Origin: Campylobacteraceae bacterium
Lineage (GTDB): Bacteria > Campylobacterota > Campylobacteria > Campylobacterales > Sulfurovaceae
Assembly: GCA_027081405.1 (NCBI GenBank)
Contig: JALWKO010000050.1
Span: 1 to 43,158, forward strand
Reading direction: 5' to 3'
Length of the DNA stretch: 43,158 nucleotides
Shown here: positions 1,981 through 42,054 of the stretch, piece after piece
How the letters are laid out: the number at the start of each line of letters is the position of its first letter
Position numbering within the stretch: the first letter of the stretch is position 1
The notes under the pieces: generated by a model
Told to the model about the DNA's origin: nothing
The model's input: only the letters and a program-made list of their open reading frames with translations
Databases searched by the model: none
Translations under genes and position numbers: made by a program

Positions 1981-2112
1981 TTCATTTGTTTTTCTTTGTT
2001 CACGCGACAAAGAAAAACGAAACGAAGCAAAGAAAAAGAAAACGCGAGGTACTGGCGTCTGGGTGGAGATACCATGCTTTGGCGAAACCGTCTAGCGGGA
2101 TTGTGATCCCAT
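1981..2112. repeat. Dispersed element R, copy 1
   Basis: The first 83 bases (1981-2063) are identical to 15068-15150; similarity continues more loosely to the GGGAT-TGTG-ATCCC hairpin near 2098. The element opens with a 15-bp inverted repeat, T-rich arm 1985-1999 and A-rich arm 2007-2021, with one T-G pair and a 7-base loop TCACGCG. A purine-rich stretch follows, then GCGAGGTACTGGCGTCTGG. A degenerate third trace lies at 9973-9991. Short open frames through it are not supported as genes. Confidence 0.85.
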
Positions 2113-6927: not shown

Positions 6928-6966
6928 TAGGCATTTTTCAAAACCAATATGACAGTAGGAGTGTTT

Positions 6967-8160
6967 ATGTCCATCCAACCCGTCACGTCCGTCGAAGCGT
7001 TCCGATCTCTGGTGGAGGAGATCCAGTCCCAGGAGGGCTACCGGCAGCCCGTCGCCTTTGGGATCGCCCGGGTCGACCGGGGTCAGAAAAACGCCGACAA
7101 GGTGCTGCAGGCCAACTATGCCGTCGTCAACTGGAAAGAGAATTACGGTTCGGCGGCGATTTTCATCCGGGCGCTGCAGGAGGCGCGGGTCGCCGTCGAT
7201 TTCAGCGGGAGTGAATTCGTCGCGACCCTCAGCGACGAGTTCGTCGCCAACGCCATGGCGGCTTTCGCCCCCTATGTGGCCGAAGCGGTCGGGGACGCCC
7301 ACCGAAACGTGCAGGTGATCAAAGTCCTCTCGGAGATGGGGGATATCGGCAAAGACTATCGGATCTGCTTCCTTTTCGAAGACGCGGCCCCCAAAAGTGT
7401 CGAGGCGGTCTATCTGAAACTCTACGCCCTCTCCCTGGGCAAAGCGCCCCTGCGGGGGGTCAACCTCGAGGGGGCCTTCGGGGTGCTTACCAACGTCGCC
7501 TGGGTGGGGAACAAACCCTACGAGCTGGAGTATCTGCGGGAACACGAGATCGAAATGAAACTCAAGGGGACCTTCCCCAACATCGACAGCGTAGACAAAT
7601 TCCCCCGCTATCTGCAGCATGTCATCCCCGCCGACAACACCCGGATCCTGGACAGCTCCAAAGTCCGCATGGGGGCCCAGCTGGCCCCCGGCACCACCGT
7701 CATGCCCGGCGCCAGCTACATCAACTTCAACGCCGGGACCCTGGGACCGGTGATGGTCGAAGGGCGGATCTCCTCCTCGGCGGTGGTCGGAAGCGGCTCG
7801 GACGTAGGCGGCGGTGCGAGTATCCTGGGGGTCCTCTCCGGGACGGATGGCAACCCCATCAGCATCGGGGAGAACACTCTGCTGGGGGCCAACTCGGTCA
7901 CCGGGATCCCTCTGGGAGACGGCTGCATCGTCGATGCGGGGATCGCCGTACTGGCCGGGACCAAAATCCGCATCGACGAGGATCAGCTCGCCAAGATCCG
8001 GGAGGCCAACCCCGAGGTGGAGCTGGAGGACAAAACGGTCTTCAAAGGGGCCGAACTCCAGGGGCTCAACGGGATCCACTACCGGATCGATTCCCTCAGC
8101 GGCGAAATGATCGCACGCCGCAGCACCCGGGAGGTGAAGCTCAACGAGGAGCTGCATTGA
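6967..8160 (+). CDS. dapD: 2,3,4,5-tetrahydropyridine-2,6-dicarboxylate N-succinyltransferase
   Basis: 397 residues, matching the long epsilon-type DapD. The enzyme transfers succinyl from succinyl-CoA to tetrahydrodipicolinate in the diaminopimelate/lysine pathway, feeding peptidoglycan synthesis. An N-terminal domain is followed by a left-handed beta-helix region (about 235-345) with repeated hexapeptides such as VRMGAQLAPGTTVMPGASYI and ISIGENTLLGANSVTGI. The start is placed at the second ATG (6967) because TAGGAG lies just before it, while the ATG at 6949 has no Shine-Dalgarno. The stop codon sits inside an 11-bp perfect hairpin. dapA occurs elsewhere in the window (42059-42952). Confidence 0.93.
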   Translation: MSIQPVTSVEAFRSLVEEIQSQEGYRQPVAFGIARVDRGQKNADKVLQANYAVVNWKENYGSAAIFIRALQEARVAVDFSGSEFVATLSDEFVANAMAAFAPYVAEAVGDAHRNVQVIKVLSEMGDIGKDYRICFLFEDAAPKSVEAVYLKLYALSLGKAPLRGVNLEGAFGVLTNVAWVGNKPYELEYLREHEIEMKLKGTFPNIDSVDKFPRYLQHVIPADNTRILDSSKVRMGAQLAPGTTVMPGASYINFNAGTLGPVMVEGRISSSAVVGSGSDVGGGASILGVLSGTDGNPISIGENTLLGANSVTGIPLGDGCIVDAGIAVLAGTKIRIDEDQLAKIREANPEVELEDKTVFKGAELQGLNGIHYRIDSLSGEMIARRSTREVKLNEELH

Positions 8161-8181
8161 TCGAAACGGGGTTTCGATCAA
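8157..8181 (+). other. Perfect hairpin over the dapD stop codon
   Basis: 11-bp stem TTGATCGAAAC (8157-8167), loop GGG, GTTTCGATCAA (8171-8181). The left arm contains the dapD stop; the right arm joins directly onto an AGTGAGG heptamer array. There is no following T-tract, so a classical terminator is unlikely, though RNA 3'-end protection is possible. Confidence 0.7.
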
Positions 8182-8275
8182 GTGAGGAGTGAAGAGTGAG
8201 GAGTGAGGAATTGCGTGGCGCCGCGTTGCGGCGCGATGGAAGGAAGGTGGGACTCCAGTCCCGCATTTGGGGTGC
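8181..8275. repeat. AGTGAGG array and hairpins after dapD
   Basis: Four heptamers (AGTGAGG, AGTGAAG, AGTGAGG, AGTGAGG) at 8181-8208, then GGCGCCGC-GTT-GCGGCGCG and a shortened double-hairpin module with GGGACT-CC-AGTCCC at 8249-8262. Confidence 0.8.
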
Positions 8276-8619: not shown

Positions 8620-8865
8620 ATGCGTATCGATAAGTGGCTCAGCAGCGTCAACGTGGTCAAGCGGCGCACCATCGCCCAGGATATGGTCAAAAGCGGCGTG
8701 GTCTACATCAACGGCGTCAAAGCCAAACCCTCCAAAGAGGTGAAGGTGGGCGACCGCATCACCATCGAGTACCTCAAAGGGGCCCGGGAATACGAAGTAC
8801 TGGCGATCCCCACGACCAGGACGATCCCCAAGAGCAAAAAAGAGGAATACGTTCGTGAGCTTTGA
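8620..8865 (+). CDS. S4-domain RNA-binding protein (Hsp15/RqcP-like)
   Basis: 81 residues made almost entirely of one S4 domain: MRIDKWLSSVNVVKRRTIAQ, then SGVVYINGVKAKPSKEVKVGD. This is the layout of Hsp15 (HslR) and RqcP, which bind 50S subunits carrying stalled peptidyl-tRNA. The start at 8620 follows AAGGGA; the earlier ATG at 8560 would add an unlikely tail. The stop codon lies inside a 7-bp perfect hairpin (GTGAGCT...AGCTCAC). trpD begins 38 bases later. Its role in ribosome rescue is inferred from the family. Confidence 0.82.
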   Translation: MRIDKWLSSVNVVKRRTIAQDMVKSGVVYINGVKAKPSKEVKVGDRITIEYLKGAREYEVLAIPTTRTIPKSKKEEYVREL

Positions 8866-8873
8866 GAGCTCAC
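8855..8873 (+). other. Perfect hairpin over the stop codon of the S4 gene
   Basis: GTGAGCT (8855-8861), loop TTGAG, AGCTCAC (8867-8873). The stop TGA is at 8863-8865. A heptamer array begins three bases later. No T-tract. Confidence 0.6.
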
Positions 8874-8875
8874 GG

Positions 8876-14821: not shown

Positions 14822-15067
14822 GGGGAGTTGAGAATTGAGAATGGAGAATTTTGGGGCGCCGTGCAGCGCGACAGATGTTGGATTGTGGGGCGTTGCTTTG
14901 CAACGCGTATCTTTGGAGGCGGGACTTCAGTCCCGCAGTGCAGGGCGAAACCCCTGCCTCCAATACACCAATAGACCAATAACGTTGCCGAAGGCAACAG
15001 TTCTTGCGACTTGCGACGTGGGCCCCGGAGGCCGTGTGTTCGACATTTGATTGGATTGATTTTTCTC
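14822..15067. repeat. Repeat mosaic upstream of rpsF, part 1
   Basis: GTTGAGA/ATTGAGA/ATGGAGA at 14827-14847, then GGCGCCGTGCAGCGCG and GCGTTGC-TTT-GCAACGC. Double-hairpin module copy 3 at 14915-14961 (GCGGGACT-TC-AGTCCCGC). CCAATACA-type repeats at 14960-14981, then GTTGCC-GAA-GGCAAC at 14984-14998. No gene seen between rpsF and leuA. Confidence 0.85.
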
Positions 15068-15203
15068 TTCATTTGTTTTTCTTTGTTCACGCGACAAAGA
15101 AAAACGAAACGAAGCAAAGAAAAAGAAAACGCGAGGTACTGGCGTCTGGGCGGAGATGCCATTGGATGGGGGAATCGTGTAGCGTGGGATTGCGATCCCA
15201 CGG
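15068..15203. repeat. Dispersed element R, copy 2
   Basis: Bases 15068-15150 are identical to 1981-2063, including the long T-rich/A-rich hairpin. After that the copies diverge but both keep a GGGAT-TGYG-ATCCC hairpin near their end (here TGGGAT-TGCG-ATCCCA). Same orientation as copy 1. Confidence 0.85.
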
Positions 15204-15605
15204 GGAGATGGAGAGTGGAGAATTGAGGATTGAGAATGGAGGATGGAGAATTTTGGGGCGCCGCGGGGCGGCACGATGTGAGTGAAGAGTGAAAAATGAA
15301 GAGTGAAGAATGGCGGGGCGCTGTGTAGCACGGTTTGATGATGGATTTTGGATTTTGAATTTTGAATTTTGGATTTTGGATTGCGGGGCGCCTAATGGGC
15401 GCGTTTTGAATGAGAAATGAGAAGATAGAAATGAGAAATTTCTGGGCGTTGCTTCGCAACGCTTCCAATGACGAATGACATCGCCGAAGGCGACACCTCT
15501 TGCGACTTGAGGCCCGTAGGACCGTGCTTGCGACTGAATAAGGGACGAAGCCCCGTTCAAACGACGAACGACGGACATCGTGGCCCGAAGGGCCGAGCGT
15601 GCGCC
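15204..15605. repeat. Repeat mosaic between element R and leuA, part 2
   Basis: ATGGAGA-type units at 15208-15249 (six units), AGTGAAG-type at 15281-15308, GGATTTT/GAATTTT at 15343-15382, and AATGAGA-type at 15409-15436. Each is followed by a GGGGC-led mini-palindrome (for example GGCGCC-TAAT-GGGCGC and GCGTTGC-TTC-GCAACGC). Then TCGCC-GAA-GGCGA at 15481-15493, two AACGACG units near 15562, and GGCCC-GAA-GGGCC close to the leuA stop. Confidence 0.85.
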
Positions 15606-19053: not shown

Positions 19054-19145
19054 AGTGGGTAAGTGGGTAGTGCGCAGTGGGTAATATAAAAAGAAGAAAG
19101 TAAAGCTTTCATCCGAAACTCTTCACTCTTCACTCCTCACTGTCA
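19054..19145 (+). repeat. Heptamer-type repeats in the mnmG leader
   Basis: GTGGGTA-like units at about 19054-19083 and TTCACTC/CTCACTG units at about 19116-19142, the latter being the reverse complement of the AGTGAGG family. They lie inside the predicted mnmG 5' untranslated region. Confidence 0.6.
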
Positions 19146-19161
19146 TTAAAACGGGGTTTTT

Positions 19162-21036
19162 ATGAACTACGACGTAATCGTTATCGGCGGCGGGCATGCG
19201 GGGATCGAAGCCTCCCTGGCCGCCGCCCGGATGGGGGCCAGGACCCTCATGATCACCATTCTGGTCGAGCAGATCGGCGCCAGCAGCTGCAACCCGGCCA
19301 TCGGCGGCCTGGCCAAGGGACATTTGGTCAAGGAGATCGACGCCCTGGGAGGGGAGATGGGGCGCTGTACCGACGCCACGTGGCTGCAGTTTCGCCAGCT
19401 CAACTCCTCCAAAGGCCCCGCCGTGCGCGGCAGCCGGGCCCAGATCGATATGGATCGCTACCGGATCCATATGCGCGACGTCTGCCTGCACACCCCCAAT
19501 CTGGAGGTGCGCCAGGAGATCGTGGAGCGCCTCATCGTCGAGGGGGATACGGTCCGTGGGGTCGAGACCCAGCTGGGCAACCGCTACGAAGCCCCCAAGG
19601 TGATCATCGCCTCGGGGACCTTCCTGAATGGTCTGATCCATATCGGGGAGCGGACCCAGCGGGCGGGTCGACAGGGGGAATTCGCCTCGATCACCCTTGC
19701 CGAGCAGTTACGGAGCATGGACTTCGAGATCGGCCGGCTCAAGACCGGTACCTGCGCCCGCGTCGCCGGGGAGAGCATCGATTTCTCGGTCATGGAGGTG
19801 CAGCCGGGCGACGAGCGGCCGATTCCGTTTTCCTTCCGGACCGACCGGGAGAGCTTCGCGCCCGAGCAGCTGCCGTGCTGGGTGACCTACACCACCGAAG
19901 AGACCCATCGGATCATCGAGAGCAATTTCCACCGCGCGCCCCTATTCAGCGGCCAGATCGAGGGGGTCGGTCCCCGCTACTGCCCCAGCATCGAGGACAA
20001 GATCGATCGCTTTCGGGACCGTCCGCGGCATCAGGTCTTCGTGGAGCCCCAGACCCGGGAGGCCAACGAGTTCTATCTCAACGGCCTGAGCACGTCGCTG
20101 CCGACCGATGTGCAGGAGGCGATGATCCGTTCGATCCCGGGGTTGGAAAATGCTCGGATCGTCCGTTTCGGCTACGCCATCGAGTACGACTTCATCCAGC
20201 CCACCGAGCTGTACCACACGCTGGAGAGCAAAAAGATCCGGGGGCTCTATTGGGCCGGGCAGGTCAACGGCACCACCGGCTACGAGGAGGCGGCGGCCCA
20301 GGGGCTCATGGCCGGGATCAACGCCGTGCTGGCCCTGCGTGGGGAAGAGCCGCTGATCCTGGGGCGGGACGAAGCCTACATCGGGGTGCTCATCGACGAT
20401 CTGGTGACCAAAGGGACCAACGAACCCTACCGGATGTTCACCTCCCGGGCCGAGTACCGTCTGCTGCTGCGGGAAGACAACGCCCATCTGCGTCTGTCCC
20501 ACTACGGGGTGAAGCTGGGGCTGCTGCCCGAATCCTTCGGTCGGCGCGTCGACGAGTTGAAGCGGCAGATCGCCGAGGCGCTGGAGTGGCTCAAAACCCA
20601 CTACGCCACCCCCACCAAAGAGTTCGTCGCCCGACTCGAGGAGATGGGGGAAGAGAAAATCAGCGACAAAACCGCCTGGATCGACGTGCTGGCCCGGATC
20701 AAAGAGCCCAGCAAAGAGAAGCTCCTGCAACTACTGCCCGATTTCACCCGCTACGGCGACGAGGCGATCGAACAGATCCTCATCGAAGCCAAATACTATC
20801 GCTATATCGAGAAGCAGCGGCAGCAGATCGACCGGATGCACGAAATGCACGCCGAGCGGATCCCCGAAGGGTTCGATTTCTCGGCGGTTCAGGGGCTGAG
20901 CAAGGAGGTGGTGGAGAAACTGCAAAAGGCCAATCCCCCCTCGCTTTTCGAAGCTTCCCGGATCAGCGGGATCACCCCGGCGGCGATCGAGATCCTCCAC
21001 GTCTATCTGAAAATGCTTGGCAAAGGAAAGCGATGA
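19162..21036 (+). CDS. mnmG: tRNA uridine-5-carboxymethylaminomethyl modification enzyme
   Basis: 624 residues. The FAD-dependent partner of MnmE that modifies U34 of several tRNAs. The dinucleotide-binding motif is GGGHAGIEA (9-17). Family signatures include [45 protein letters not shown], and the C-terminal helical domain that binds MnmE. Its stop overlaps the next gene (ATGA). I recall the mnmG-petABC neighbourhood from Campylobacter. Confidence 0.97.
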
Positions 21037-26021: not shown

Positions 26022-26280
26022 AGTGAGGAGTGAAGAGTGAGTTTCCGTCGTTTGTCGTTTGAACGGGGCTTCACCTCTCTTTGTCGTTTGAGACTGGTCG
26101 GTAGTCGGCAGTCGGCAATCGGCAGTAAGTGCGCCTTCGGCGCCGTTATTGGTGTATTGGTGTATTGGTGTATTGGAAGCGTTGCAAAGCAACGCTTAGC
26201 GAAATTCTCAATTCTCAATTCTCCATTCTCCATTAAAAATCGGTTCCTCACTCCTCACTTCTCATTCCTCGCTCCAGAAC
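26022..26280. repeat. Heptamer arrays between moaA and queE
   Basis: AGTGAGG units at 26022-26041. GTCGTTT pairs at 26047-26060 and again at 26083. GTCGGTA/GTCGGCA/ATCGGCA at 26097-26124. GCGCC-TTC-GGCGC at 26131-26143. Period-8 GGTGTATT repeats at about 26149-26175. GCGTTGC-AAA-GCAACGC, ATTCTCA/ATTCTCC units at 26204-26231, and CCTCACT units at about 26246-26275. No gene seen. Confidence 0.85.
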
Positions 26281-39451: not shown

Positions 39452-39690
39452 GGATGGAGAATTTCGGGGCACCGCGTGGCGGCACGATGTGAGTGAAGAA
39501 TGAAAAATGAAAAGTGAAGAATGGCGGTGCGCCGCGTGGCGCGGATTGATGATGGATTTTGGATTTTGGATTGTGGGGCGTTGCGTTGCAACGCGTTTTC
39601 AAACGATACACAACGTATCCCCAATGACCAGTGACCAATGACGAATGACGTTGCCGAAGGCAACAGTTCTTGCGACCAGAGGCCCGAAGG
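39433..39690. repeat. Heptamer-array/hairpin mosaic after hrpB
   Basis: ATTGAGA/GTTGAGA/ATTGAGG/ATGGAGA at 39433-39460 (covering the hrpB stop), AGTGAAG/AATGAAA units at 39492-39519, GGATTTT units at about 39553-39571, GCGTTGC-GTT-GCAACGC, AATGACC-type units at 39622-39649, GTTGCC-GAA-GGCAAC at 39650-39664, and GGCCC-GAA-GGGCC at 39681-39693. No gene seen. Confidence 0.85.
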
Positions 39691-40550: not shown

Positions 40551-41096
40551 TCAGTGCAGGGCGGTCTGGCGGAAATAGTCCCGGACGTACTCGTAGCCGC
40601 TGTAGAGGGTCAGCGCTACGGCGATCCAGAGCAGGAGGGTGCCGCCGGGCCACTCCATGAGGAGGAACCCGATGGCGAACATCTGGCTGACCGTCTTGAC
40701 CTTGCCCATCCAGCTGGCCGAGACCTTGAGCCCCCGTCCCGCGGCGGAGACCCGAAGCCCGGTGATGAAAAGTTCGCGGGTGAGGATCAGATAGATCGCC
40801 CAGGGGTCGGCGCGCCCCAGCAGCATCAGCCCCAGAAATCCCGCCAGGGTGAGCATCTTGTCGGCCAGCGGGTCGAGAATCTCCCCCAGGGGGGTGATCT
40901 GGTCGAAGGTGCGGGCGATATAGCCGTCGAAAAAATCGGTCGCGCTGGCGAGGACGAAGAGAAACGCGGCACCGTAATCGAGCCAGCTGTAGTGGATCCC
41001 CTCGAAAACGCTCCAGTCCCGATCGACCAGGAGCAGATACATCAGCGGCGCCATCAGGAGGCGGATGAACGCCAGGACGTTGGGCACGTTAACCAT
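40551..41096 (-). CDS. pgsA: CDP-diacylglycerol-glycerol-3-phosphate 3-phosphatidyltransferase
   Basis: 181 residues, five to six membrane helices. The CDP-alcohol phosphotransferase motif is present as DFFDGYIARTFDQITPLGEILDPLADK in spread form (D-G-x2-AR-x8-G-x3-D-x3-D). Makes phosphatidylglycerol phosphate. The ATG at 41096 is chosen because AGGAG lies five bases upstream. That Shine-Dalgarno lies in the loop, and the ATG in the stem, of an 18-bp perfect hairpin. Confidence 0.93.
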   Translation of the reverse strand: MVNVPNVLAFIRLLMAPLMYLLLVDRDWSVFEGIHYSWLDYGAAFLFVLASATDFFDGYIARTFDQITPLGEILDPLADKMLTLAGFLGLMLLGRADPWAIYLILTRELFITGLRVSAAGRGLKVSASWMGKVKTVSQMFAIGFLLMEWPGGTLLLWIAVALTLYSGYEYVRDYFRQTALH

Positions 41097-41124
41097 CCGC
41101 ACTCCTGTGCGGATGGTTAACGTG
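41085..41124 (-). promoter_or_regulatory. Perfect 18-bp hairpin holding the pgsA start codon
   Basis: Arms 41085-41102 and 41107-41124 are exact inverted copies; the loop on the message is AGGA (41106-41103), part of the Shine-Dalgarno AGGAG. The start codon (41096-41094) is paired inside the stem. The outer arm joins directly to a GGATTTT heptamer array. Confidence 0.85.
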
Positions 41125-41261
41125 GATTTTGGATTTTGGATTTTGGATTTTGGATTGAAGGATTATAAATTGAAGATTATTGCTTGAAAAAAACCTCTCA
41201 AACCAATACACCAATACACCAATACACCAATACACTAAAAAATTCATTCTCAATCCTCCAT
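41124..41261. repeat. Tandem repeats between pgsA and the reductase gene
   Basis: GGATTTT four full units plus a partial at 41124-41157; CCAATACA four units of 8 bases at 41203-41234; then ATTCTCA/ATCCTCC units up to the hairpin at 41262. Confidence 0.85.
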
Positions 41262-41284
41262 TCCGCTGATACAATCAGCGGAAC
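41262..41284 (-). other. Perfect hairpin over the stop codon of the FabL-like gene
   Basis: Plus-strand arms TTCCGCTGAT and ATCAGCGGAA with loop ACA. The stop (TGA on the minus strand, 41275-41277) is inside the right arm. The left arm abuts a heptamer array. No T-tract. Confidence 0.7.
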
Positions 41285-42054
41285 GTCGTTCCCCCGTCGA
41301 CCACGATCGTCTGGCCGGTGATCCAGCTGGCGTCGTCGGTGCAGAGGAAATAGATCGCCCCGGCGAGATCTTCGGGGGTCCCCATCCGGTTGAGGGCCGA
41401 GCGTTTGATCGTTTCGGCTTTGACCTCTTCGTAGTTGGTGAAGGCTTTGAGGGCGTCGGTCTCGATGGGGCCGCCGCTGACGGCGTTGACCCGGATGTTC
41501 CACTCCCCCAGCTCCACGGCGGCGTAGCGGGCCATCGCCTCGACGGCCGCTTTGTTGGTGCCGTGGCCGGCGTAGTTTTCGATGTAGATCAGATTGCCGG
41601 TGGAGCTGAGCGTGACGATGGATCCGCCACCCACTTCTTTCATCCGTTTGGCCGCCTCCTGGCTCCCGGCGACGAAGGCGCCGACGGTGGCCATGTAGAT
41701 GTTGGCCAGCCCTTTTTTGGGGCGGAGTTTCATGAATTTGCCGTATCCCCCGACGACGGGGCGGCCGTAGATCATGGCGTTGGAGACGAAAAAATCGACC
41801 CGGTCGAAATCCCGGTCGATCGCTTCGAAGAGGGGTTTGAACTGGTCGGTGTCGAGGATGTCCAGGGGGTAGCAGCGGGCTTTGACGCCGTAGCGCTCTT
41901 CCAGCTCTCCGGCGAACTCCTCGGCCGCTTCTTTGTTGGTATTGTAGGTGAATGCCACGTTGACGCCGTTGCGGGCGAATTTTTCGGCGGTGGCCCGGCC
42001 GATTCCGCGGGTCCCTCCGGTGATGACGAGGGTCTTGCCTTTCATTTCGCTCAT
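41275..42054 (-). CDS. FabL-like enoyl-ACP reductase (SDR family)
   Basis: 259 residues. Rossmann motif VITGGTRGIGRATAEKF near the N-terminus; the active-site pattern is Y-x6-K (YAGHGTNK), as in enoyl-ACP reductases; RVNAVSGGPIETDALKAF and TGQTIVVDGG closely follow the FabL pattern of Bacillus. Probably reduces enoyl-ACP in fatty-acid synthesis, though another oxidoreductase role is possible. It starts four bases after dapA. I recall an oxidoreductase behind dapA in Campylobacter. Confidence 0.85.
   Translation of the reverse strand: MSEMKGKTLVITGGTRGIGRATAEKFARNGVNVAFTYNTNKEAAEEFAGELEERYGVKARCYPLDILDTDQFKPLFEAIDRDFDRVDFFVSNAMIYGRPVVGGYGKFMKLRPKKGLANIYMATVGAFVAGSQEAAKRMKEVGGGSIVTLSSTGNLIYIENYAGHGTNKAAVEAMARYAAVELGEWNIRVNAVSGGPIETDALKAFTNYEEVKAETIKRSALNRMGTPEDLAGAIYFLCTDDASWITGQTIVVDGGTTFR

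Follow-up and report, generated by a model that had tools for sequence, protein, structure and literature searches.

Hairpins copied from gene edges at the borders of G-rich heptamer arrays in Sulfurovaceae are consistent with recurrent fold-back template switching

Genes, hairpins and arrays in the window

The window, that is the whole stretch of DNA that was analysed (43,158 nucleotides, contig JALWKO010000050.1 of a Sulfurovaceae genome), contains five hairpins in which the first or last bases of a gene are mirrored outside it, together with tandem arrays of short G-rich repeats. Gene names other than those supported by Pfam are putative assignments from the protein sequences; mnmG was identified by Pfam GIDA. 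The features are as follows.

6949..8160, + strand, dapD (tetrahydrodipicolinate N-succinyltransferase; Pfam THDPS_N/THDPS_M), stop codon within the inner arm of the hairpin
8157..8181, + strand, gene-copy hairpin at the 3' end of dapD, TTGATCGAAAC-ggg-GTTTCGATCAA, 11-bp arms, loop GGG
8181..8211, + strand, heptamer array AGTGAGG, G-rich strand directed out of dapD
8620..8865, + strand, S4-domain gene (Pfam S4)
8854..8874, + strand, gene-copy hairpin at the 3' end of the S4 gene, CGTGAGCT-ttgag-AGCTCACG, 8-bp arms, loop holding the stop codon
8874..8905, + strand, heptamer array GATTGAG/GAATGGA, directed out of the S4 gene
19117..19141, - strand (the G-rich strand being the minus strand), heptamer array AGTGAAG/AGTGAGG, directed out of mnmG
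19143..19165, + strand, gene-copy hairpin at the start of mnmG (ATG 19162), TCATTAAAAC-ggg-GTTTTTATGA, 10-bp arms with one mismatch, loop GGG
40551..41102, - strand, pgsA-like CDP-alcohol phosphatidyltransferase (Pfam PF01066)
41085..41124, - strand, gene-copy hairpin at the start of pgsA, 18-bp arms, loop of 4
41123..41158, + strand, heptamer array TGGATTT, G-rich strand directed out of pgsA
41199..41240, - strand, octamer array ATTGGTGT, within the FabL-pgsA spacer
41244..41260, - strand, degenerate heptamers TGGAGGATTGAGAATGA, abutting the FabL-like hairpin and not called as an array
41261..41283, - strand, gene-copy hairpin at the 3' end of the FabL-like gene, TTCCGCTGAT-aca-ATCAGCGGAA, 10-bp arms, loop of 3
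41275..42054, - strand, FabL-like enoyl-ACP reductase (SDR family; Pfam adh_short_C2)

The hairpins of dapD, the S4 gene, pgsA and the FabL-like gene had been claimed in an initial annotation of this DNA and are present essentially as it described them. Its coordinates were exact for dapD and pgsA and off by one base for the FabL-like gene, whose 10-bp arms were as given, while the hairpin of the S4 gene was found with arms of 8 bp (8854-8874) instead of 7. A further case proposed at the stop of a macro-domain gene (CTACGCCGTAG, 2327-2337) was dropped as too weak to count: its arms measure 5 bp, its loop is a single base and the closest array that was called (2170-2200) ends at a distance of 127 nt. 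The hairpin at mnmG had been overlooked. The claim that an array lies at or near the outer arm holds for dapD, the S4 gene and pgsA, where the arrays start at 8181, 8874 and 41123; the hairpin of the FabL-like gene is followed only by some two degenerate heptamers and then the octamer array. No Rfam match was obtained anywhere in the window.

Hairpins are also present at the orthologous dapD ends of G001, G002, G007, G009 and G011. The hairpin of pgsA has the start codon within its arm and AGGA in its loop on the gene strand; the RNA fold of the 81 nt containing it reaches -37.8 kcal/mol, and its arms are species-specific in eight orthologous copies with arrays.

The arrays are heptameric short tandem repeats of the STRR type, being intergenic head-to-tail heptamers with the G-rich strand running outward from genes, and some ten unit types alternate. 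G exceeds C on the outgoing strand at 63 of 72 3' edges and 32 of 43 5' edges. Since this strand points outward at both gene ends, spacers such as that between the FabL-like gene and pgsA, which has a hairpin at each end, are mirror images. The phase of the array right after the outer arm tends to be constant (AGTGAGG, AATGAGG or GATTGAG; seen in the window at 8182, 8875 and 41125, and also at other loci), and the arrays behave as though they were given a defined start.

Other repeats were recorded alongside these. The octamer unit TATTGGTG is common to 26147-26178 and 41199-41240, and octamers also adjoin gene-copy hairpins in loci L065 and L187. Some arrays overrun the stop codon (1704-1731 in the window, and genome-wide), with the TGA or TAA of the unit itself apparently used as stop; among 3' edges with an array and no hairpin, 15 of 64 arrays begin at or before the stop. 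Several copies of a GC-rich hairpin, GCGTTGC-nnn-GCAACGC, are present, at 2207-2223, 2929-2945, 14890-14906, 15446-15462 and 39578-39594, often near another of the form GCGGGAC-ttca-GTCCCGC. Since 59 of the 156 arrays have GCGTTGC in their 3' flank, the arrays may belong to some larger unit resembling REP elements. In addition, one 12-bp hairpin, GTTTTTCTTTGT-tcacgcg-ACAAAGAAAAAC, occurs twice in the window (1988-2018 and 15075-15105).

Anatomy of the junction

Hairpins were scored as arm length minus 2 per mismatch, with a threshold of at least 8. In G000 and in G011, a complete congener consisting of a single contig of 2,101,285 bases, the order gene, inner arm, loop, outer arm, array is seen at 37 of 138 array-bearing edges (25 of 99 in G000 and 12 of 39 in G011); at about three quarters of such edges (101/138) no hairpin reaching a score of 8 stands where the array begins. 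All outer arms lie within 7 nt of the array start by construction of this search; in 17 of the 37 hairpins the outer arm ends 0 or +1 nt from it. The inner arm takes in at least 3 nt of coding sequence in 28 hairpins, and 21 are located at gene starts. True loops measure 0-15 nt, most commonly 3, and two hairpins have a true loop of 0. The arms differ at every locus and have no sequence in common. As in template-switch mutation, each of these 37 hairpins at array borders amounts to a reverse-complement copy of the adjacent sequence across a short spacer.

Hairpins at array boundaries across the genome

The genome sample comprised 1,257,779 of 1,930,504 bases, window included. Gene calls came from a simple script based on codon usage, so that starts are approximate; arrays were called by a period of 7 or 8, degenerate arrays being missed by the caller. 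Hairpins were counted when their end lay no more than 6 nt from the array boundary.

Of the 156 intergenic arrays in these 1.26 Mb, 28 had a hairpin scoring at least 8 at the G-rich 5' boundary and five had one at the 3' boundary, while eight of 1922 array-free gene edges had one; such hairpins are about 40 times commoner at the 5' boundary than at array-free edges. Dinucleotide shuffles gave a mean 5'-boundary count of 0.55 and a maximum of 2. The imbalance is kept outside the window (24/138 against 3/138 at the 5' and 3' boundaries) and in 400 kb of G011 (9/48 against 0/48, with 5/588 control edges). The association of hairpins with the array 5' boundary beyond chance is confirmed.

Counted by gene edge, hairpins with arms of at least 8 occurred outside the window at 8 of 39 5' edges with an array and 5 of 601 without (p=9.5e-8), and in G011 at 8 of 25 and 5 of 184 (p=1.2e-5); with arms of at least 12, they occurred at 5 of 43 gene starts with an array and none of 623 without. 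Enrichment at gene ends is modest. With arms of at least 10 the counts were 6/72 with an array against 6/506 without when the window was included and 4/65 against 6/485 outside it (p=0.022), and in G011, with arms of at least 8, the difference of 3/28 against 6/157 was not significant (p=0.14). Array-free congeners gave 2/102 edges (G008) and 0/162 edges (G003) with arms of at least 10. The genome-wide scan that the initial annotation had proposed finds hairpins together with arrays above expectation, and not at equal frequency at array-free gene edges. Its other contrary outcome, conservation as terminators in relatives, was not seen either: hairpins occur in 2 of 25 array-free cells of the orthologue comparison in G003, G004, G008 and G012, both with one mismatch and positioned elsewhere. 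In a further cell beyond these 25, that of the ABC transporter gene in G004, an array was called and the hairpin beside it has one mismatch.

Orthologous edges in relatives

Nine orthologous edges (dapD, S4, FabL-like, pgsA, truB, ispE, xseA, rho and an ABC transporter, abc) were compared in up to 13 genomes, dropping partial hits and hits without 70 nt of flank. By our own classification G000, G001, G002, G005, G006, G007, G009, G010 and G011 are array-bearing and G003, G004, G008 and G012 array-free; G009 and G010 have other heptamers and almost no TGGATTT arrays. Where an orthologous edge has no array, the hairpin is usually missing too: array and hairpin were found together in 46 cases, array only in 13, hairpin only in nine and neither in 32 (p=4e-8), and the same categories numbered 45, 13, 7 and 9 in the array-bearing species alone (p=0.014). 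By eye, several of the nine hairpins without a called array have degenerate heptamers.

Across the genus (Nitratifractor-like, Sulfurovaceae) the outer arm tracks the codons of each species. The transporter gene ends in GCCCGAATGAT, GCCAGAATGAT, GCACGAATGAT or GCTCGAATGAT, each mirrored outside the gene, and per-species arms are also seen at pgsA, ispE and S4. In orthologues of equal geometry, to which the pairing test was limited (7 of 12 for abc and 5 of 9 for xseA), pairing with the species' own outer arm was 0.945 (abc) and 0.963 (xseA), against 0.853 and 0.863 with the outer arm of another species. Homogenisation of the arms over evolution, as expected of template switching, is thereby seen at these two edges; selection would predict likewise. 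The arms of the transporter are imperfect in G007 and G002 (10 and 12 of 13 paired), which indicates that upkeep of the hairpin is not constant. In the xseA gene of G006 (L246) a TGA interrupts the frame that was matched.

The 3' coding arm of the transporter gene encodes A-R-M-I-stop, array-free G003 included, while the outer arm is found in array-bearing species only. The presence of the coding arm in array-free relatives that do not have the outer arm shows that the gene is the template and that copying runs from the gene to the outside. At the 3' end of rho the hairpins of G000, G005, G010 and G011 are unrelated to those of G002 and G007, and G001 has by eye a further, imperfect one, so that several independent births, at least two, seem to have occurred there. 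The dapD loop is GGA in G002 and TCC in G001 and G007. As the sole instance of spacer inversion this may be due to chance, and it was dropped as proof.

Relation to the birth of arrays

The initial annotation had proposed a fold-back template switch during array birth. The switch is the best-fitting mechanism; its tie to array birth is half supported. Flush junctions (17/37) speak for such a tie, as does the co-variation of hairpin geometry with array type, the observed link being reached in 9 of 5000 within-species-pair permutations over 138 orthologue pairs; geometry and array type switch together most plainly at rho and pgsA. Against it, the hairpin outlives replacement of the array at xseA, ispE and abc, where it is retained beside units that differ between species, and arrays of identical heptamers in viral contigs are without gene-copy hairpins, the two hairpins found (2/93) being built of array units. 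Among other Campylobacterota, for which same-genus loci were excluded and 16 of 30 loci used, hairpins of score 8 stood at the 5' boundary of 3 of 16 arrays and the 3' boundary of none. Arrays evidently do not require hairpins, as the viral contigs and these 16 loci indicate. At array borders the hairpins seem to be a local trait of Sulfurovaceae, and generality across phyla was set aside as unsupported beyond this family. Viral contigs L307-L340 carry AGTGAGG and TCATTGG arrays.

Origin of the hairpins

Good evidence supports the view, first suggested for this DNA, that the hairpins reflect a process and not a shared element: the arms show no relation from one locus to another, differ between species and reproduce the edge of the gene. 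A shared mobile element, REP or MITE was rejected, the copies having no common arm sequence. We consider it probable that the process is recurrent fold-back template switching, directed outward from the gene, at borders of genes and heptamer arrays, a mechanism deduced from anatomy and covariation. At such a border a strand with its 3' end pointing out of the gene would fold back recurrently on its own recently copied sequence, or switch to it; 7-18 nt of the gene edge would be copied in reverse before synthesis resumes in the array, leaving gene, inner arm, short loop, outer arm and array. Later fold-backs would re-copy the arm, and the hairpin could keep up with the changing codons of the gene. 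Template switching is described as creating and maintaining hairpins (in the available text of PMC8794818) and as homogenising arms and inverting spacers (in that of PMC8604942). Beside the observed anatomy, polarity, flush junction, gene-to-outside copying, covariation and array dependence, we infer which strand is involved and at what step of replication or repair, and also that re-copying, not selection, is the cause of upkeep. The fold-back model requires no function, and a hairpin at a gene start would bury the start codon if transcribed. Several points count against it. Selection on the hairpin itself would predict the covariation just as well, and loop-less hairpins (2/37) are awkward because a lone 3' end folds with difficulty. 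Spacer inversion, a hallmark of template switching at inverted repeats, was seen at dapD alone, enrichment at 3' edges is modest, most array-bearing edges (101/138) have no such hairpin, and nine hairpins stand where no array was called. V(D)J P-nucleotide palindromes are loop-less, and a likeness to them was rejected on this same rarity of zero loops.

SbcCD is a hairpin nuclease, and its loss may let palindromes persist. SbcD scored above the cut-off in none of the nine array-bearing genomes and in two of the four array-free ones. G003, where SbcD was not over the cut-off, has no arrays, which means that loss of SbcD is not sufficient; the link is moreover confounded with phylogeny.

Alternatively, the hairpins may be kept by selection as RNA structures, protecting the 3' end or acting in attenuation at gene ends and masking the start codon at gene starts, with the arrays belonging to the same regulatory element. 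Covariation of the arms over up to eight orthologues, persistence of the hairpin through array replacement and, at four of the five window sites, RNA folds stronger than those of shuffled sequence (z -2.4 to -7.0) fit such upkeep by selection, which we nevertheless regard as unlikely, since there is no folding at mnmG (z 0.69), 5' and 3' edges of unrelated genes are affected alike, the arms reach arbitrary codons with an offset that varies between species, and the hairpins follow the G-rich 5' boundary of the array and not the direction of the transcript. Mismatches in mRNA sense numbered 5 G.U, 4 A.C and 6 others among 15, and 3, 2 and 5 among 10 in a second set; in these small samples the lack of a G.U excess over A.C speaks mildly against selection on the transcript. 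That the hairpins are ordinary intrinsic terminators which happen to begin at stop codons is scarcely credible: bacterial genes often have hairpins near their ends and those of dapD, the S4 gene and the FabL-like gene do span stop codons, yet 21 of 37 stand at gene starts, purine arrays follow them in place of T runs, and in the two window regions scanned no GC-rich stem with a sense-strand T run was found, none being called in the sense direction and that of pgsA in antisense only.

Array and hairpin could also have been born together by the healing of broken gene borders, whose 3' ends were extended in two stages, a self-primed copy of the gene edge being made first and heptamers being synthesised after it, before two ends were joined. 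The outward G-rich strand at 3' and 5' edges (63/72 and 32/43), the mirror-image FabL-pgsA spacer with its two hairpins and the joint switching of geometry and array type would all agree with healing. Heptamer units common to several loci and other taxa, however, look copied and not locally made, and hairpins survive array replacement. Ku was found in none of 13 genomes, nor was RVT_1 found in any of the nine array-bearing ones, its two occurrences among the 13 being in array-free genomes, so that neither Ku-dependent end joining nor telomerase-like or reverse-transcriptase addition is indicated; healing appears quite improbable. It is similarly doubtful that a two-step 3'-end extension remakes gene borders, with a fold-back copy of the gene edge made first and G-rich heptamers then acquired from other arrays; if true, each gene or operon would have telomere-like capped edges, joined head to head in spacers. 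Fold-back template switching is retained as the preferred reading.

Comparison with known systems

REP/BIME and MITE elements are multi-copy intergenic hairpins. The GC-rich GCGTTGC...GCAACGC hairpin that often follows the arrays resembles them, whereas the gene-copy hairpins share no sequence between loci. PMC2817692 and PMC3116915 concern such elements.

Template-switch (quasipalindrome) mutations, which create or repair hairpins (PMC8794818, PMC8604942 and PMC7202029, in the text available), share with the present loci a perfect reverse-complement copy beside its source, a short loop and arms kept alike in evolution, possibly also the spacer inversion at dapD. The cases in the available portions of those reports concern RNA genes, yeast coding genes and reporter assays. 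In the present genome, by contrast, copying concentrates at a single boundary of the heptamer arrays, recurs at many gene edges and runs from the gene to the outside.

The G-rich heptamers of Xanthomonas and Nostoc (Rehm et al. 2015, PMC4692102) are, in the available text, intergenic near gene edges and form convergent pairs, with the G-rich strand sense after stops and antisense before starts, the same outward polarity as here. Their unit, GGGAATC, differs, and that text describes no gene-edge copy between gene and array. The TAACTGA heptamers of Beggiatoaceae, cyanobacteria and Bacteroidetes (PMC4679880) are likewise described, in the text available, as intergenic, near start codons and patchy across phyla, with one dominant unit, whereas here some ten alternating types are preceded by gene-copy hairpins. 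No description of gene-edge copies at heptamer arrays was found in the literature searched, most subscription papers being outside its scope.

Significance

Compensatory base changes are usually read as proof of a selected RNA structure. For the clean compensatory arms at many of these gene edges, copying linked to repeat arrays seems the better explanation, and the reading as a process is supported. If copying explains the arms, covariation near repeats needs a control before it is read as functional. The loci would then be a natural genome-wide record of template switching, with its strand and a possible link to a hairpin nuclease. They would also offer a clue to how heptamer arrays, which occur in several phyla, come to be seated at gene borders.
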